Source: Akkermansiaceae bacterium (GTDB lineage Bacteria; Verrucomicrobiota; Verrucomicrobiia; Verrucomicrobiales; Akkermansiaceae). Taken from it: DNA of 42,929 bases. Each line of letters opens with the position of its first letter. Positions within the stretch are counted from its first letter, which is position 1. A program made the position numbers and the translations under genes. Where the stretch lies: positions 1-42,929 of the forward strand of contig CAIVKO010000166.1 of NCBI GenBank assembly GCA_903906515.1, given 5' to 3'. Below, piece by piece: positions 22,352 to 38,791 of this stretch. The notes under the pieces are model-generated. The model was not told the DNA's origin and did not search any database. It saw only the letters and a program-made list of their open reading frames with translations.

Positions 22352-25300
22352 TTATTTCGATAATTGTTTATCCAACCACAGGCCGACTTTCTGCGCCCAT
22401 GCTTCGCCGTGTTTCTGTAATCCCTCGCCGTTGAAATGCACTCCGGCGCGCAGATTGCCCTTGAGCGCATCGCTGTCCGGGCCTTCGACGGCGATCCCGT
22501 TATCCCACAACGCTTTTTGCGCGGCGCGAAACTCCTCATCGGCGGCATCCTTCTCGCTGTGAAAGGTCGCCAGCGCAACAAACCAAGGCATTTCCCAACC
22601 GGCTTGTTTGCGGGTCGCCTTGATCAAGATCTCCATGAACTGGCGGTATTGCTCGCCGGTGATCTGACGGTCGGCCGGGTAACCCGCCCGCGCCTGTCCG
22701 GCATCGGACTCTCCTTGATGCCACAGCACCGCGCGGAAACCCCGAGGACCGAGCGCCTGGCACCGCTTCACGAACTTGTCAAAAAGCACTCCCATACTCG
22801 TCCACTCACCGGGGCCTGCGGGCACGACGTTTTTACCGGTCGTCGGTTGTTGGCGCATCTTCTCGCCTTGCGGCAGCCATTCTCTAACACTGGAGCTTCC
22901 GACACCCGTTGCGGCAAGGGCGACAGGCACTTGATACTTGGCCACGAGCGCATCGCCAAAGGCCGGCAGGAAACTTCCGCCTCCACCTGAAGCACCGGGC
23001 TGCGGATCATTCGCCAGCACCCAGCGCTGACCATCAAAGGCCGACACCAAACCACTCTTCGGTTGTTGTTTTCCCGATCCGTGGTTCGCGGAATTCGATT
23101 GTCCGGCGACGACAAAAACCTCGCCCACTCCAACACGTTCGACCACAGTGGATTTCCCCTCGCTGCGGACTTCCAGTTTATACCATCCACCTGCGGGGAC
23201 AGCCGCTTTCGTGGCAAACGAACGCGTTGTGGCATTGATTGGCAACGGTTGCCAATTCCCCGGCAATTCTCCGACGCGGGAATTTCCGGTTAGACGGTAT
23301 TCCCAAGTCCCGGCGGACTTGACGCTGCCAGCAATTTCTATCTTTCCGGCATCTTTGGACTCGCGTTGAAACACTTGGTAATCCTGTGGTGAACTCAACA
23401 GCACCGGGGCGTCCGCGGTTACGGTGACGGCGGAAGTTTCGGCGGCGAGTGGGAAAATCTGAATGTCCGCCCGTCGCGACTCAGGGCTAACAGAATCCAC
23501 GATCACCTTGCCGCCGGTGACGTGGCCGGTGACGGTGGTCTGATAGGGAGCGCACAGTTTGAATGAGCAGTTCCAGTTTTTCGGCCATGCGGGACCTAGC
23601 AGGATGCGTTTTCCATCGGCCTGCATCAGCATCTCTTGAAGGGCTGTCATGGCGGTGCCTCCATGGTCCATGTCCGGGCTGTGACAGAAATTTCCTTTGC
23701 CGCCGGAGTAACGGGTGAAATAGAACGTGGGGAACCGGTAGCCGGGATGGTTGAATTTCTCCACAGTGAGGGCGGCCGCTTGCGCCGCTTGTCCCATACG
23801 CGCGAGATTGATTGCGGATTGATACCAACATTGGTTCTGATGTTGGATGGCGGGCTCGATTGGACTGAGATCCCAGGTGTTTTGAGCCAGACTCATATCA
23901 CTGCGACCGAGCGAGAGGATGGAGAACGGGAAACAGACATACATTTGCGGGAAGTCCATATTGCCGTTTTTCATCACCCATTCCCATGATCTGGCTGCGC
24001 CGAAAAACTTCTTACCGTCCTTCTCTTCCATCGGGAATTCTGGGATGCGCGCGCGAAATCCTTCGACATAAGTCCGCTGCTTGGCGGTCAGGCGTCCTTG
24101 CGGCAATGCGAGAAGTTCCCGGCTGAGCGCGGTGAGACCGGCGATGACATCGGTGTTGTTGGTGCATCCGTGATACGGTTCGCAGGCGTCACTTGGATAG
24201 ATGATGAGACGGCCCTTTTCATCGAGTGGCTTGCCGGTCCGCTTGAGGGTGGATTTCTGAAAATACTCGTCGTAATAGGAAATGAAACCAAGAGCGGGTT
24301 CAACGTAGCCGTCGATCGCCTTGCCGGTGTAGCGCTCCATCTCCAACATCATGAGCGCGAACTCCATGCCGGAGGTGTAGTGATAGAGCAAATGCTTGGG
24401 TTTGCATCGTCCATCGCCATCGGTGCCGATGGCACTAAGACCGAAAATATTCAAAGCTTCGGGATAGGTGACACCCTCGACATCCCAGAATTTCCGCACA
24501 TGCATGCGGTTCATTTCCGTGCGTTCCTGATAGAAATCCGTGGCCACCTTGAGCAGGTCGAAGTCCCCCGCACGCAGCATCGGCCAGTAAACCAGTCGTT
24601 GGTTCTGGGCCATGAACTGGCAGAAATCCCAGTTGCGTTTGTCAGGATTGCCAGCGCAGGCGAAGATACCGCCATTGAACAAGGTCATCGCGCGGCCGGA
24701 GGTATTGGCAGCCATGGTATAGCGGACAAGTTGATAGTTTCTTCCCGTCAGCCATGGTAGATCCTGCGTGCGATCCTTCGAGGGATCCGCCGCGATGGAT
24801 ATATGGCTGCGGTTCCAGAATGATTTCCACCAATCCAATGTGGCCGCGCGTGATTCGCTCGTGGACGCCTTGACCTGTGCAGCAGACGCGGCGAGCGCGG
24901 ATTTCCATGCTGTGAGAGAATCGTCCTGCTCCATACGCAGGGTGAACGTGAGGTTGATTGCAGAAACCGGAGTTTTCGTGGCAACCGATGTGATCTGGGT
25001 GTCCAGAGTGTTGAATTTCCCCTTGGATTCCGGCAGCGCGATCAAGCCGGGTGCATCCAGGCGTCCGCCGAGTGTGAGTTTTGAAAGCGGGTCGGGGATG
25101 GATTTGGCAAAGTCCTCCATGCCCTGCGACTTCATGTCTTGCGTCCTCCGCGGGTTTACCTCGGCAAGGCGTTTGACCCACTCGAAGCCACCTTCTTGTT
25201 GGGATGCCTGATATCCGGACCACGTTTCATAAGACGTCGTGAGAGTGCGGGGTTCTCCCGAATTCATATCAACATGAATGACCGGTCGATTGACCTCGCA

Positions 25301-25699
25301 CCAGAGCTTGACCTCGACCTTTCCACCGGAAGGACTGCTTCCGCTCACGATGATCTCGCTTTCCTGCAAGCGCAGTTCTTGTCGGAAATTCTTGTCGAAA
25401 ACCGGTTGGTCGAAGTGCAGGCGGACCAGTCCGAGTTTCACCTGCATGCCTCGTTCATCCATGCAGTTAGGACTGCCGATGAGTAACAACAGGTCGTTGT
25501 TCTCCACCCAGACATTGAGTCCGAGATTGCCACCTGCGAGTGGCATCGAATCCGTCGAACTTTTGCTCTGACTGTCCCAGACGACGTTGTAAGACTCCAT
25601 CGGTGGTTCCGATGTTTGTTTCAACGCCGTCCGCTCTTCTCCGCCGGTAGCAACGACCGTCGCGAGCAGGCTCATGGTTTGGATTAATTTCAACATCAT
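22352..25699 (-). CDS. DUF5703-type glycosidase-like domain fused to a sialate-O-acetylesterase
   Basis: 1115 residues with an N-terminal signal-like segment. The first 750 residues match from memory the DUF5703 family (YNVVWDSQSKSSTDSMPLAGG, then NDLLLLIGSPNCMDERG). This consists of a beta-sandwich and an (alpha/alpha)6 barrel related to GH95/GH65-like hydrolases (FNGGIFACAG, FWDVEGVTYPEALNIF, HQNQCWYQSAINLARMG). Residues about 770-860 form an Ig-like linker domain. Residues 863-1115 are a full SASA esterase: VVAGQSNSANHG with Ser868, LWHQGESDAG, and GVHFNGEG with His1088. A single protein may thus deacetylate and cleave the same glycan. The glycosidase activity of DUF5703 is inferred from fold and context. 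The esterase half has its own catalytic residues. Confidence 0.85.
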   Translation of the reverse strand: MMLKLIQTMSLLATVVATGGEERTALKQTSEPPMESYNVVWDSQSKSSTDSMPLAGGNLGLNVWVENNDLLLLIGSPNCMDERGMQVKLGLVRLHFDQPVFDKNFRQELRLQESEIIVSGSSPSGGKVEVKLWCEVNRPVIHVDMNSGEPRTLTTSYETWSGYQASQQEGGFEWVKRLAEVNPRRTQDMKSQGMEDFAKSIPDPLSKLTLGGRLDAPGLIALPESKGKFNTLDTQITSVATKTPVSAINLTFTLRMEQDDSLTAWKSALAASAAQVKASTSESRAATLDWWKSFWNRSHISIAADPSKDRTQDLPWLTGRNYQLVRYTMAANTSGRAMTLFNGGIFACAGNPDKRNWDFCQFMAQNQRLVYWPMLRAGDFDLLKVATDFYQERTEMNRMHVRKFWDVEGVTYPEALNIFGLSAIGTDGDGRCKPKHLLYHYTSGMEFALMMLEMERYTGKAIDGYVEPALGFISYYDEYFQKSTLKRTGKPLDEKGRLIIYPSDACEPYHGCTNNTDVIAGLTALSRELLALPQGRLTAKQRTYVEGFRARIPEFPMEEKDGKKFFGAARSWEWVMKNGNMDFPQMYVCFPFSILSLGRSDMSLAQNTWDLSPIEPAIQHQNQCWYQSAINLARMGQAAQAAALTVEKFNHPGYRFPTFYFTRYSGGKGNFCHSPDMDHGGTAMTALQEMLMQADGKRILLGPAWPKNWNCSFKLCAPYQTTVTGHVTGGKVIVDSVSPESRRADIQIFPLAAETSAVTVTADAPVLLSSPQDYQVFQRESKDAGKIEIAGSVKSAGTWEYRLTGNSRVGELPGNWQPLPINATTRSFATKAAVPAGGWYKLEVRSEGKSTVVERVGVGEVFVVAGQSNSANHGSGKQQPKSGLVSAFDGQRWVLANDPQPGASGGGGSFLPAFGDALVAKYQVPVALAATGVGSSSVREWLPQGEKMRQQPTTGKNVVPAGPGEWTSMGVLFDKFVKRCQALGPRGFRAVLWHQGESDAGQARAGYPADRQITGEQYRQFMEILIKATRKQAGWEMPWFVALATFHSEKDAADEEFRAAQKALWDNGIAVEGPDSDALKGNLRAGVHFNGEGLQKHGEAWAQKVGLWLDKQLSK

Positions 25700-36691: not shown

Positions 36692-38791
36692 TCACTTTGT
36701 GGTTTTCGTTGGTTTAAATAATTCGAGCATCGCGCGTCCCATCGTTTCGCCGATTTCCAGGAAGGATTCGGCGTTTGTGTTGTAACAAAACGCAGGGGCT
36801 CCGGGCGAAAGTTCAGGGGTGCGGTAGAAGGGGAGCGTATCGATACTTTTCACGTTGTCTGCGAATTCTTGATATTTTTCCGGATTGCCCACCGCCATTT
36901 GTGCATCGTGGATTTTTTTCGTGTTCGCGTTCATGGTGGTCCCGCCGAATCCGATTGCGGTTACAATGATCGGCAGGGTGGGGGACTTGAATTCCTTGCG
37001 CACGTCGCGGATCAAGTTGGCGAGATTTTTCTCATAGGCCGATGAGAACGCATTCGACTGGGAGTCTGCGATGCCTTGAAACCAAACCATGCCGGCCAAT
37101 TCCACGCCTTGATTTTTGTAGTTAGGGATGAATTTTTCTGGTTTGGCCAGCATATCCTTCACGCTATCCACCAGTTGCAGATATTCCTGACCACTCTGCA
37201 GATAACGCTTCAAATCAAGCCATTCCTCGATATGAGCCAGACCGTTCCCGGTATGTCCGGCGTTACCAGCGCTCATGTAAATGGACGCTTTCCCGTCGAG
37301 GTTCTTGGTCACCTTCTCGATATAGGTACCGGTGATGGAATCGCCAATCAGCAGCACCCGCGGAAACGGTTTGGTGGATTGTTTGCGGTTGGCCAGTGCC
37401 GCAAGGATCGTCTCGGTGACCTTCGGTGCGAGGTTGCCGACGCTGTGGACATTGTCCGGACTCTTCGGAAAACCCTGACGGATCGACTCGGCATGGAGGT
37501 CGTCGATCATCACGTCGTTCTCTTTCATGATGCGGTCGGCGACGGCGTTGTATTCATCCTCGATACCCTTGACCCATCCATCCGTGTTTTCGGGAAGAGG
37601 GGTGGTTCTGGCCCAGACCAGAGTCGCGCCGGTGGTTTTCATTCTCGACACCATCTTGCGGAGGTTGGCTTCATATTGCTCGATGGGAACCGTGATTGGA
37701 TACTTGGTTTTGTCGCGGTCGGTGTAGTTGTTAGGATTGCGGTGTGCGGTGTCATGCACGCCAAAATTGAAGTGGATGATATCCCAGTTTCCCTTCAGGT
37801 CGGGGTCGCCACCACTCGATGGCGGCATGTAATCCTGCCCGAGCGAACGGCTGCCCTTTAGGAATCCGATGGGGTGGCGGGTCGCAAAACGATGAATGAA
37901 TACCGGTTCTTCGAAGTGTTCTCCGAGGATCTGGCCTAACATGAGATCAGGTGCCACTCCATGTCCGGGATCTTTTGGGTCGGCTGAAATTCCGAGCAGG
38001 CGGCCCATCGCCTTCGTGTTGTTGAACATCGGTTGGCCATCGTAAACCACCACATCGTCCCGCTTGCCCCACCCGCCGTCCGCGTCCTTCAGGAATCCCC
38101 AGTGCTCCTTGTTTCCGGTTACGACGGACTCAAGAGTGCCGGGTTTGTTACCCAGTAAAACGCGGAACTCATGTCCGGGTTTTTTGAAGAAAATGGTTTT
38201 GAACGCGCAACGTTTTTTCGCTTCGAGTTGAACCGGGGTAATGGTCGCCTCCTGTTGTCCGATATCCCGCCGGTAAACCTCCTTGCCCTCCAATGTCGTG
38301 ACATTGAAGGCGGACTCACCGGCTCCCGGAAGAATCTGATAGAGTCCCGGACGGGCCACCGATACATAGCCGCGCAGCTCCGTGGTGTGGCCGTCTTGCT
38401 CGGCAAGCGCGGGAAACGGCGTCAGCGGGATTGGCTGCCGGACTTTATTTTTGTTAGACCCTTTCTCCATGCGCGGAGCTCCGATTTCAACCACTCCGGT
38501 GGCTTCGGGCTTGAGCGTGTCGTAATTTGTTCCAGGCGCGTAGGCTCCTTGGTAAACCGCGCAGTTGACGTGCTTCGTCCGTTCATCCTTCACGGGCTTG
38601 TCACCGGGATAGAACGACGCCTCGCTGCCGTCCGAAGTCATTTCCACCACGCCTTGCTCCAGGCAGTTCTCGTCACCCGCCAGGATAAACACCTTGATGG
38701 GCTTCGTCTCAGCCATGGCCGATGTGACGATCGTGGCGGCGATGATAGCTTTGCTGATGAAATTTCGAGTTGCGGACGGAAGGGAAAGCAT
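36692..38791 (-). CDS. Chimeric esterase: degenerate SASA scaffold containing a circularly permuted SGNH domain
   Basis: 699 residues; signal peptide about 1-27. The SASA start reads VFILAGDENCLEQG, so the nucleophile Ser of GQSNM is Glu41. The PA14-like insert (about 60-240) is as in the 765-residue SASA protein. After YMPPSSGG (about 321-328) a foreign block begins: WDIIHFNFGVHD (Asn342), LVWARTTPLP, DNVHSVG (Asp446, His449), then LLIGDSITG with Ser485 and NAGHTGNG. This is the order C-half then N-half of an SGNH hydrolase. The SASA fold then resumes (GMVWFQGIADSQ; IHDAQMAVGNPEKY) and ends at CYNTNAESFL, where the catalytic His is Cys669. Thus only the inserted domain has a full set of SGNH residues. 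I infer that it is the active esterase and the SASA part a scaffold. Confidence 0.82.
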   Translation of the reverse strand: MLSLPSATRNFISKAIIAATIVTSAMAETKPIKVFILAGDENCLEQGVVEMTSDGSEASFYPGDKPVKDERTKHVNCAVYQGAYAPGTNYDTLKPEATGVVEIGAPRMEKGSNKNKVRQPIPLTPFPALAEQDGHTTELRGYVSVARPGLYQILPGAGESAFNVTTLEGKEVYRRDIGQQEATITPVQLEAKKRCAFKTIFFKKPGHEFRVLLGNKPGTLESVVTGNKEHWGFLKDADGGWGKRDDVVVYDGQPMFNNTKAMGRLLGISADPKDPGHGVAPDLMLGQILGEHFEEPVFIHRFATRHPIGFLKGSRSLGQDYMPPSSGGDPDLKGNWDIIHFNFGVHDTAHRNPNNYTDRDKTKYPITVPIEQYEANLRKMVSRMKTTGATLVWARTTPLPENTDGWVKGIEDEYNAVADRIMKENDVMIDDLHAESIRQGFPKSPDNVHSVGNLAPKVTETILAALANRKQSTKPFPRVLLIGDSITGTYIEKVTKNLDGKASIYMSAGNAGHTGNGLAHIEEWLDLKRYLQSGQEYLQLVDSVKDMLAKPEKFIPNYKNQGVELAGMVWFQGIADSQSNAFSSAYEKNLANLIRDVRKEFKSPTLPIIVTAIGFGGTTMNANTKKIHDAQMAVGNPEKYQEFADNVKSIDTLPFYRTPELSPGAPAFCYNTNAESFLEIGETMGRAMLELFKPTKTTK

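Follow-up and report, generated by a model that had tools for sequence, protein, structure and literature searches.

AlgX, AlgJ, PatB1 (DHHW) and WssI are described, in the accessible portions of the literature, as permuted SGNH-like O-acetyltransferases with the block order H-S-G-N or H-S-G-Y/D, and AlgX/AlgJ are circularly permuted with the order H-S-G-N and with Tyr in place of Asn (PMC9487903, accessible part). SGNH domains that are split or that carry insertions are likewise described for Ape1, HEF and CE20, and in the CE20 enzymes Fl8CE20_II and PpCE20_II the SGNH-type esterase domain is split by a β-sandwich and the catalytic His has no direct contact with the acid (PMC12313940, accessible part). 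Here we describe P0001, a 699-residue protein encoded on the minus strand at positions 36692–38791 of a 42,929-nucleotide stretch of DNA from an Akkermansiaceae bacterium (the whole stretch is called the window). In P0001, a circularly permuted SGNH domain lies inside a SASA domain (PF03629, sialic-acid-specific acetylesterase, CE6-like) that has lost its own Ser and His, and the paralogue P0002, whose gene adjoins that of P0001 upstream in the gene run, has the same layout. Such a design had been proposed in an original prediction made from the DNA letters, and it is borne out by matches to profiles, by predicted structures, by two trees and by the existence of 13 distinct homologues.

The full layout is present in P0001, P0002 and the homologous loci L015–L018, L020, L022–L025, L027, L106 and L110. 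Since L016 and L024 encode one ORF and L112 is the same as L025, one of each was counted, giving 13 distinct members; L026, which is truncated by the contig end, and L107, which carries an in-frame stop, were omitted from the 13-member counts. The stop in L107 (genome G294) is single, lies between blocks III and V and breaks a gene of the permuted family. A hidden Markov model (HMM) built from 81 standard-order SGNH domains of the fetched loci matches all 13 permuted proteins in two crossed pieces, profile positions 52/54 to 176/194 coming first and 2 to 52/55 second. In P0001, profile positions 54–194 fall on residues 334–466 (independent E-value (i-E) 1.1e-43) and positions 2–54 on residues 476–528 (i-E 7.5e-16). 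The two pieces abut to within two profile positions in each of the 13, the first piece being short in L024 (176) and L023 (188). A third HMM line seen in 11 of the 13 (i-E 0.15–3.1) is insignificant and is noise, and 2,000 shuffles of P0001 gave two lines at E ≤ 1, near expectation. When a profile of the insert was searched against all Protein Data Bank (PDB) sequences, the best match was 4H08 (BT3161, a putative hydrolase; E 4.4e-19), again in two crossed segments, with profile 138–173 on chain 16–51 and profile 2–133 on chain 76–199, and the next best was a sugar isomerase (E 0.0034). The crossed HMM and 4H08 matches indicate that the native second part stands first, followed by a linker of about eight residues and then by the native first part, so that the block order is N-H-S-G in all 13 proteins as against the standard S-G-N-H. 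Mean pairwise identity is 39% in the linker region (467–475), and 58% and 63% in its flanks.

Pairwise comparisons place the breakpoints in P0001. BLAST aligns the SGNH parts at residues 334–467 and 470–525 with 54–55% identity to L029, and the SASA match restarts at residue 523 or 536. The blastp match to the uninserted SASA protein of L021 covers residues 10–336, and that to the uninserted SASA protein of L019 continues through the insert to 516. In a pattern screen, the SASA motif WFQG occurs in 22 of 22 ORF rows with the permuted order and in none of the 75 rows with the standard order; the 22 rows comprise the 13 distinct proteins and copies of them that recur where loci overlap, and block I is missing in five rows. 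By Pfam, PF03629 matches P0001 with 52.3 bits (residues 521–634) and P0002 with 51.9 bits (curated cut-off 24.8), and PF13472 (Lipase_GDSL_2) matches them with 35.1 and 37.3 bits, respectively (curated cut-off 32.9). The best PF13472 stretch is partial, profile 58–153 at residues 331–436 of P0001 and profile 63–160 in P0002, and this match to the later part of the profile alone is already a hint of a broken order. In the Pfam scan, PF16822 (AlgX/AlgJ) has no match to P0001 or P0002 at E ≤ 1 and only a weak one, 24.1 bits against a cut-off of 26.5, to the standard-order SGNH protein P0003; no model in the Pfam and NCBIfam scans spans the whole of P0001 or P0002. The numbers and order of Asn342 in HFNFGVHD, Asp446/His449 in DNVH and Ser485 in GDSITG are as the original prediction gave them, and the order Ser50, Asn101, Asp207/His210 that it gave for P0003, which is encoded on the minus strand, fits the BLAST register. 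The SGNH family profile has the opposite, standard order, and the predicted rearrangement stands.

An AlphaFold2 model of the insert alone, made from 27 rows (7 permuted inserts and, from standard SGNH domains, 10 C-parts and 10 N-parts), is one compact domain with a mean predicted local distance difference test score (pLDDT) of 93.2, a predicted template modelling score (pTM) of 0.90 and the strand order 3-4-5-1-2 in our numbering. This one domain is predicted to hold both the GDSITG and the DNVH segment, as the proposed inner active site requires. The full-length P0001 model, made from 11 sequences (mean pLDDT 79.2, pTM 0.71), is aligned by VIA-align with the SASA structure 2APJ from residue 30 to 693 (Z 23.2, 230 of 241 residues, 3.6 Å) and matches the SASA structure 1ZMB with Z 22.2; carbohydrate esterase structures including CE20 are among its fold matches (9EGA, Z 21.5; 7KMM, Z 21.9). 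A sequential aligner puts insert residues 2–138 on 4H08 chain 94–223 (Z 8.4, 119 residues), 2–134 on 3RJT chain 74–212 (Z 8.3) and 2–173 on 3MIL chain 69–221 (Z 9.1, 132 residues), and in the predicted model this offset against 4H08 and other GDSL esterases matches the expectation for a permutant. The known permutant AlgJ (4O8V) aligns with the insert at 27–200 over 158 residues (Z 7.0). By secondary structure, the cut sites differ: the SGNH domain is cut after the helix following block II and the SASA domain before the helix preceding block III. A segment swap would instead have produced two chimeric SGNH-fold domains, one from the outer N- and inner C-parts and the other from the inner N- and outer C-parts, with no permutation in space. 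Both cuts do lie between blocks II and III, the arrangement a1-b2-b1-a2 can be read as ordinary a-b and b-a folds, and the 2APJ range is known by its ends only, but the insert folds compactly on its own with high confidence, the full chain covers 2APJ to the extent given above, and the cut points of the two domains are not equivalent. Moreover, a complete Ser/Asn/His set exists only if the permuted domain is nested, the chimeras being without Ser or without His, and a segment swap is therefore extremely unlikely.

In the inner domain, Ser485, Asn342 and His449 are invariant in all 13 members; near block II, G517 is present in 13 and G509 in 12, and either could be the block II Gly. Mean pairwise identity is 58% and 63% in the inner halves and 52–60% in the outer core segments. 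At the outer nucleophile motif all 13 members have GDE, whereas GQSN stands there in each of 36 uninserted SASA ORFs, which were chosen by a pattern with no GQSN requirement; P0004 and L139, both with GQSNM, stand outside the 36. The translation of P0001 has GDENC at residues 39–43 and Cys669 at the SASA His position, both as originally predicted, and position 669 is a gap in four of the 13 rows, D in three, C in two and H, L, T and Y in one each. Judged from conservation, catalysis seems to have shifted from the outer to the inner domain. R301, W570, F571 and D651 of the outer domain are invariant in the 13 members; His306, invariant in a set of seven sequences, is present in 11 of the 13 and was dropped as an invariant outer residue. 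The Asp-Glu pair at residues 40–41 (38669–38674, minus strand) is constant at the dead SASA nucleophile elbow. The constancy of GDE together with that of the four outer residues could mean that the outer domain is still catalytic through a new Asp-Glu chemistry and that the insert only binds. The outer His position is variable, however, the insert retains the hydrolase Ser, Asn and His, and a carboxylate nucleophile at the SASA Ser site is not known to us from any SGNH or SASA enzyme, although no search aimed at this was made, so this alternative is very unlikely.

The residues before the block V His differ among members. The original prediction listed Asp446/His449 among the SGNH motifs; the pair is present in P0001, but Asp446 occurs in one of the 13 members, and it was rejected as a family-wide catalytic acid. 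The position two residues before the block V His is N in nine and D in four permuted members, and D in 41, N in 37 and S in one of the standard relatives, and D at −3 is found in 2 of the 79 standard-order relatives showing the motif. The absence of the classical −3 acid from 12 of 13 members, the loss of the outer site and the PA14-like domain of P0001 would suit a non-catalytic carbohydrate binder whose inner domain is inactive as well. This is improbable, since the inner Ser, Asn and His are invariant, the inner halves are conserved at the identities given above relative to the outer core, and the standard-order relatives mostly have no D at −3 either. Furthermore, Ser-His dyads and a CE20 triad with a water-mediated acid are described for SGNH-type esterases (PMC12313940, accessible part), and the missing classical acid is therefore no argument for inactivity.

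The origin of the two domains was followed in two trees, each from a quick search: an insert tree of 94 SGNH domains with the permuted rows re-ordered and with Shimodaira–Hasegawa-like approximate likelihood ratio test (SH-aLRT) support, and an outer tree of 48 SASA outer-domain rows from which the DUF5703-SASA protein of the window was left out. In the insert tree the 13 permuted rows form one clade (SH-aLRT 98) whose sister group is the standard-order L028/L029/L074 (98); these are Phycisphaerae domains, L074 on a long branch. When the SGNH halves were treed separately from few columns, the permuted rows formed one group each time (97 and 90), suggesting that both parts likely came from one donor. 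L028, L029 and the permuted domains are alike in being four residues shorter behind the block V His, and the SGNH domain of L028 is fused to the α-L-fucosidase domain PF01120 (Pfam). Fusions of SGNH with a fucosidase-like domain are among the nearest standard-order relatives of the permuted domain; the ORFs L009:27-2204 (own genome, contig C208) and L028:5956-7491 encode an SGNH domain and then an α-L-fucosidase-like domain, PF01120 being confirmed for L028 only. In the outer tree the 13 members again form one clade (99), with the uninserted, GQSNM-bearing L019/L021 as sister (90). Permutation, nesting, motif loss, conservation and one clade per tree are established computationally. The tip groups P0002+L018+L020, L015+L110 then L025, and L016+L017+L106 agree in both trees. 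P0002 groups with L018 and L020 (99 and 100), and a recent tandem duplication giving P0001 and P0002 was rejected.

The PA14-like region of P0001 is matched by 6X8A in Foldseek, and VIA-align aligns residues 52–222 with PA14 regions of GH3 and GH31 enzymes. By alignment, the domain is absent from L018, L020, L025, L027 and L110, and the stretch is present in the uninserted L019/L021. Single ORFs with two tandem SGNH domains occur in L035, L039, L048, L055, L059 and L061 (Planctomycetota and Opitutaceae records). In the middle of such a tandem pair the block order is that of the permuted insert and the spacing is similar, offering a possible route to the permutation. In the insert tree, none of the tandem proteins belongs to the group sister to the permuted domain; they were rejected as direct donors, and a tandem-duplication origin thus remains a guess.

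The family was looked for in several genome samples. Matches at E ≤ 1e-60 occur in 6 of 386 genomes of an order-wide sample and at E ≤ 1e-80 in 2 of 387 genomes of a phylum-wide sample, the own genome being included in both; 6 of 145 genomes match in a further sample, where the hits of G055 (L019, L021) are uninserted SASA proteins, leaving five with the permuted form. L022–L027 come from the best 80 loci of a search listing, and their records include Verrucomicrobia (L022), Haloferula (L024), Akkermansiaceae (L026) and, for L027, a Phycisphaerales metagenome-assembled genome (MAG; Planctomycetota) with unchecked binning. G053, congeneric with the genome of the window, and the Haloferula record L024 encode an identical protein. 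P0001 alone gave no matches when compared with genome contigs and with plasmids. An assembly artefact was rejected, since the layout occurs in 13 distinct proteins, two in the window and the rest in other genomes, one of them the Phycisphaerales MAG.

All scanned ORFs in 12822–42911 lie on the minus strand. They encode two α-L-fucosidases (PF01120, GH29-type), a GH2-type enzyme, two GH95 enzymes, a GH106 enzyme and an amidohydrolase, together with two SASA proteins, a DUF5703-SASA protein, a β-helix protein with weak PDZ matches, an SGNH protein and the two nested proteins. The ORF at 22352–25699 joins a DUF5703 domain and a C-terminal SASA domain with GQSNS in one protein. Among nine selected neighbour ORFs in relatives, five have catabolic domains, which are amidohydrolase and GH43/GH10 in L022, SASA in L023 and melibiase and sulfatase in L027; three are DUF6288 proteins, and one (L024) has nothing. 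The DUF6288 proteins near the permuted gene are L023:4397-7423, L024:10118-13711 and L025:2021-5116. It has been described that Akkermansiaceae and Puniceicoccaceae consume polysaccharides rich in fucose and rhamnose and that GH29, GH95, GH106 and PF03629 genes occur in such loci (PMC8857213, accessible part). The gene content of the locus, the neighbours in relatives and these described loci together make O-deacetylation of a fucose/rhamnose-type glycan the likeliest role, and P0001 is predicted as a likely deacetylase of fucose/rhamnose-rich polysaccharide. The permuted domain might instead put acetyl groups onto a glycan, as an acetyltransferase and not a hydrolase, given that AlgX, AlgJ, PatB1 and WssI are O-acetyltransferases in the accessible accounts. 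Against this, the hydrolase Asn of block III, which is Tyr in AlgX/AlgJ, is kept in 13 of 13 members, L028, the nearest of the standard-order relatives scanned, has a fucosidase domain fused to it, and the Pfam scan of 19 window proteins lists no MBOAT/AlgI-type partner, so that transfer is quite unlikely.

The coordinates of P0001, its parts and the related proteins of the window are collected below.

Table 1. Features of P0001 and related proteins in the window.
Feature	Coordinates	Strand	Basis
P0001: SASA fold with PA14-like insertion and circularly permuted SGNH insertion	36692–38791	minus	translation, Pfam, model, HMM
Probable signal peptide, residues 1–27	38711–38791	minus	judged by eye; helix 6–25 at low model confidence
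Outer SASA N-terminal half, residues 28–330, containing the PA14-like insertion	37802–38710	minus	blastp, 2APJ alignment range
GDENC, residues 39–43, at the SASA nucleophile motif GQSNM	38663–38677	minus	sequence; GDE in 13/13 members
PA14-like domain, residues ~52–222	38126–38638	minus	VIA-align, Foldseek, alignment
Permuted SGNH, native C-terminal part (first), residues 334–467, block III Asn342 and block V His449	37391–37792	minus	HMM 54–194, Pfam Lipase_GDSL_2 58–153
Linker, residues 468–475, joining native SGNH C- and N-termini	37367–37390	minus	identity dip in alignment
Permuted SGNH, native N-terminal part (second), residues 476–528, GDSITG with Ser485 and block II region	37208–37366	minus	HMM 2–54
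Outer SASA C-terminal half, residues 529–699, WFQG, Cys669 at the His position	36695–37207	minus	Pfam SASA 521–634, blastp
P0002, 695 aa, nested layout as P0001	38840–40927	minus	58% identity; clusters with L018, L020
P0003, 243 aa, standard-order SGNH protein in the gene run of P0001	30634–31365	minus	Pfam, BLAST register
P0004, 526 aa, ordinary SASA protein bearing GQSNM, immediately downstream of P0001	35110–36690	minus	translation, Pfam
SASA protein without insert, GQSNM and HYN, in the locus of P0001	17654–19951	minus	sequence, Pfam

These observations lead to a probable explanation in which P0001 and P0002 are members of a small carbohydrate esterase family, probably exported and most simply of single origin. 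The donor would have been an SGNH hydrolase domain closest to the Phycisphaerae ones fused to GH29-type α-L-fucosidases; its old ends would have been linked by about eight residues and the chain opened anew between blocks II and III. The permuted domain would then have entered a SASA esterase at the block II–III loop; the PA14-like stretch is found also in the closest uninserted relatives of that esterase. The SASA active site would have been replaced, Gln-Ser becoming Asp-Glu and the His being lost, with the fold kept as a scaffold. The substrate would most likely be a polysaccharide containing fucose/rhamnose, from which the enzyme would remove O-acetyl groups. Ser485 would act as the nucleophile and His449 as the base, and Asn342 would lie in the oxyanion hole; in most members the acid would likely be the Asn/Asp at −2, or there would be no side-chain acid, and it would not be the classical D at −3. 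Catalysis, export, substrate and the order of events are the parts of this explanation that we infer. Taken as a whole, from one origin to glycan O-deacetylation at the inner site, it appears probable from sequence comparison and predicted models.

Several points weigh against this explanation. In the full-length model the insert has lower confidence, with 10-residue blocks from 38 to 92, and the DNVH loop (445–450) falls below 50. That the 2APJ match comes from both outer halves and from none of the insert is something we infer, because VIA-align reports range ends only. Unrelated folds reach similar Z for the insert (8.6 for the kinase 7PUP and about 6.5–7.3 for phosphatases and UMP kinases), and with 3P94, 4IYJ and 4HF7 the aligned chain range begins near the N-terminus, so that the insert Z values are insufficient by themselves. 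D at −3 of the block V His is found in P0001 alone of the 13 members, and GDE is conserved too strongly for a merely decaying site. The deeper forks of the two trees conflict: the insert tree joins L027 to L022 (95), whereas the outer tree places it, on a long branch, outside the 12 other members (85), and L016/L017/L106 stand outside the other 10 in one tree and beside L015/L025/L110 (96) in the other. Likewise, the position of L023 differs between the trees, and the conflict may reflect weak signal or domain exchange between members. No intermediate form was found among the sequences compared, and the permuted SGNH domains known from the accessible accounts are acetyltransferases, unlike the esterase predicted for P0001.

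The invariance of the Asp-Glu pair may suggest that the dead site of the host was remade and not abandoned. It is tentatively proposed, as a possibility less likely than the explanation above, that an active-site take-over occurred within one superfamily and that the dead host site became a ligand-binding or regulatory site feeding the inner site. If so, the take-over and the remade site would make these proteins a natural nested two-site enzyme with an N-H-S-G cut new to the SGNH literature found. One natural family combines circular permutation with domain insertion, and candidate donors stand on both sides, SASA proteins L019/L021 and SGNH proteins L028/L029, so that trees could be used to follow the route and bench work to reconstruct it. 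The family offers a natural way of testing whether an enzyme can come to replace its active site through the insertion of a permuted domain. For annotation it carries a warning too: these proteins are scored either as SASA or as one half of a GDSL lipase, and a SASA label would direct attention to the dead site.

Compared with known systems, P0001 shares with the SASA family the outer fold, the profile match and the WFQG region, and it has the SASA three-dimensional fold in the predicted model (2APJ, Z 23.2), but here GQSNM is changed to GDE, the catalytic His is lost and a permuted SGNH domain of about 200 residues occupies the block II–III loop. The insert has the Ser, Asn and His motifs in common with PF13472 and the SGNH domains of L028 and L029; it differs from SGNH hydrolases in having the order N-H-S-G and not S-G-N-H, in having the DxxH acid in one of 13 members and in being placed inside another domain. 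In the accessible parts of the sources, HEF has an SGNH esterase domain of non-contiguous segments, like the split P0001, but no permutation of block order is described in it and its outer domain is unrelated, and in CE20 the split SGNH domain stays catalytic, whereas in P0001 the catalytic motifs lie in the insert. An N-H-S-G permutant, or an SGNH-fold enzyme nested in an inactivated SGNH-fold enzyme, has no description in the open-access literature searched. The remark in the original prediction that it knew of no described enzyme of such design holds, within the literature searched, for the N-H-S-G cut and the nesting, but not for permutation as such, which is known from AlgX/AlgJ/PatB1/WssI. 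As far as the accessible accounts go, AlgX/AlgJ, PatB1 and WssI share with P0001 a circular permutation of the SGNH domain made at another cut, with Asp for Asn in WssI, and nesting in another SGNH-fold domain, as in P0001, is not described in them. Circular permutation of SGNH domains is thus already known, and what is new in P0001 is the N-H-S-G cut together with the nesting.

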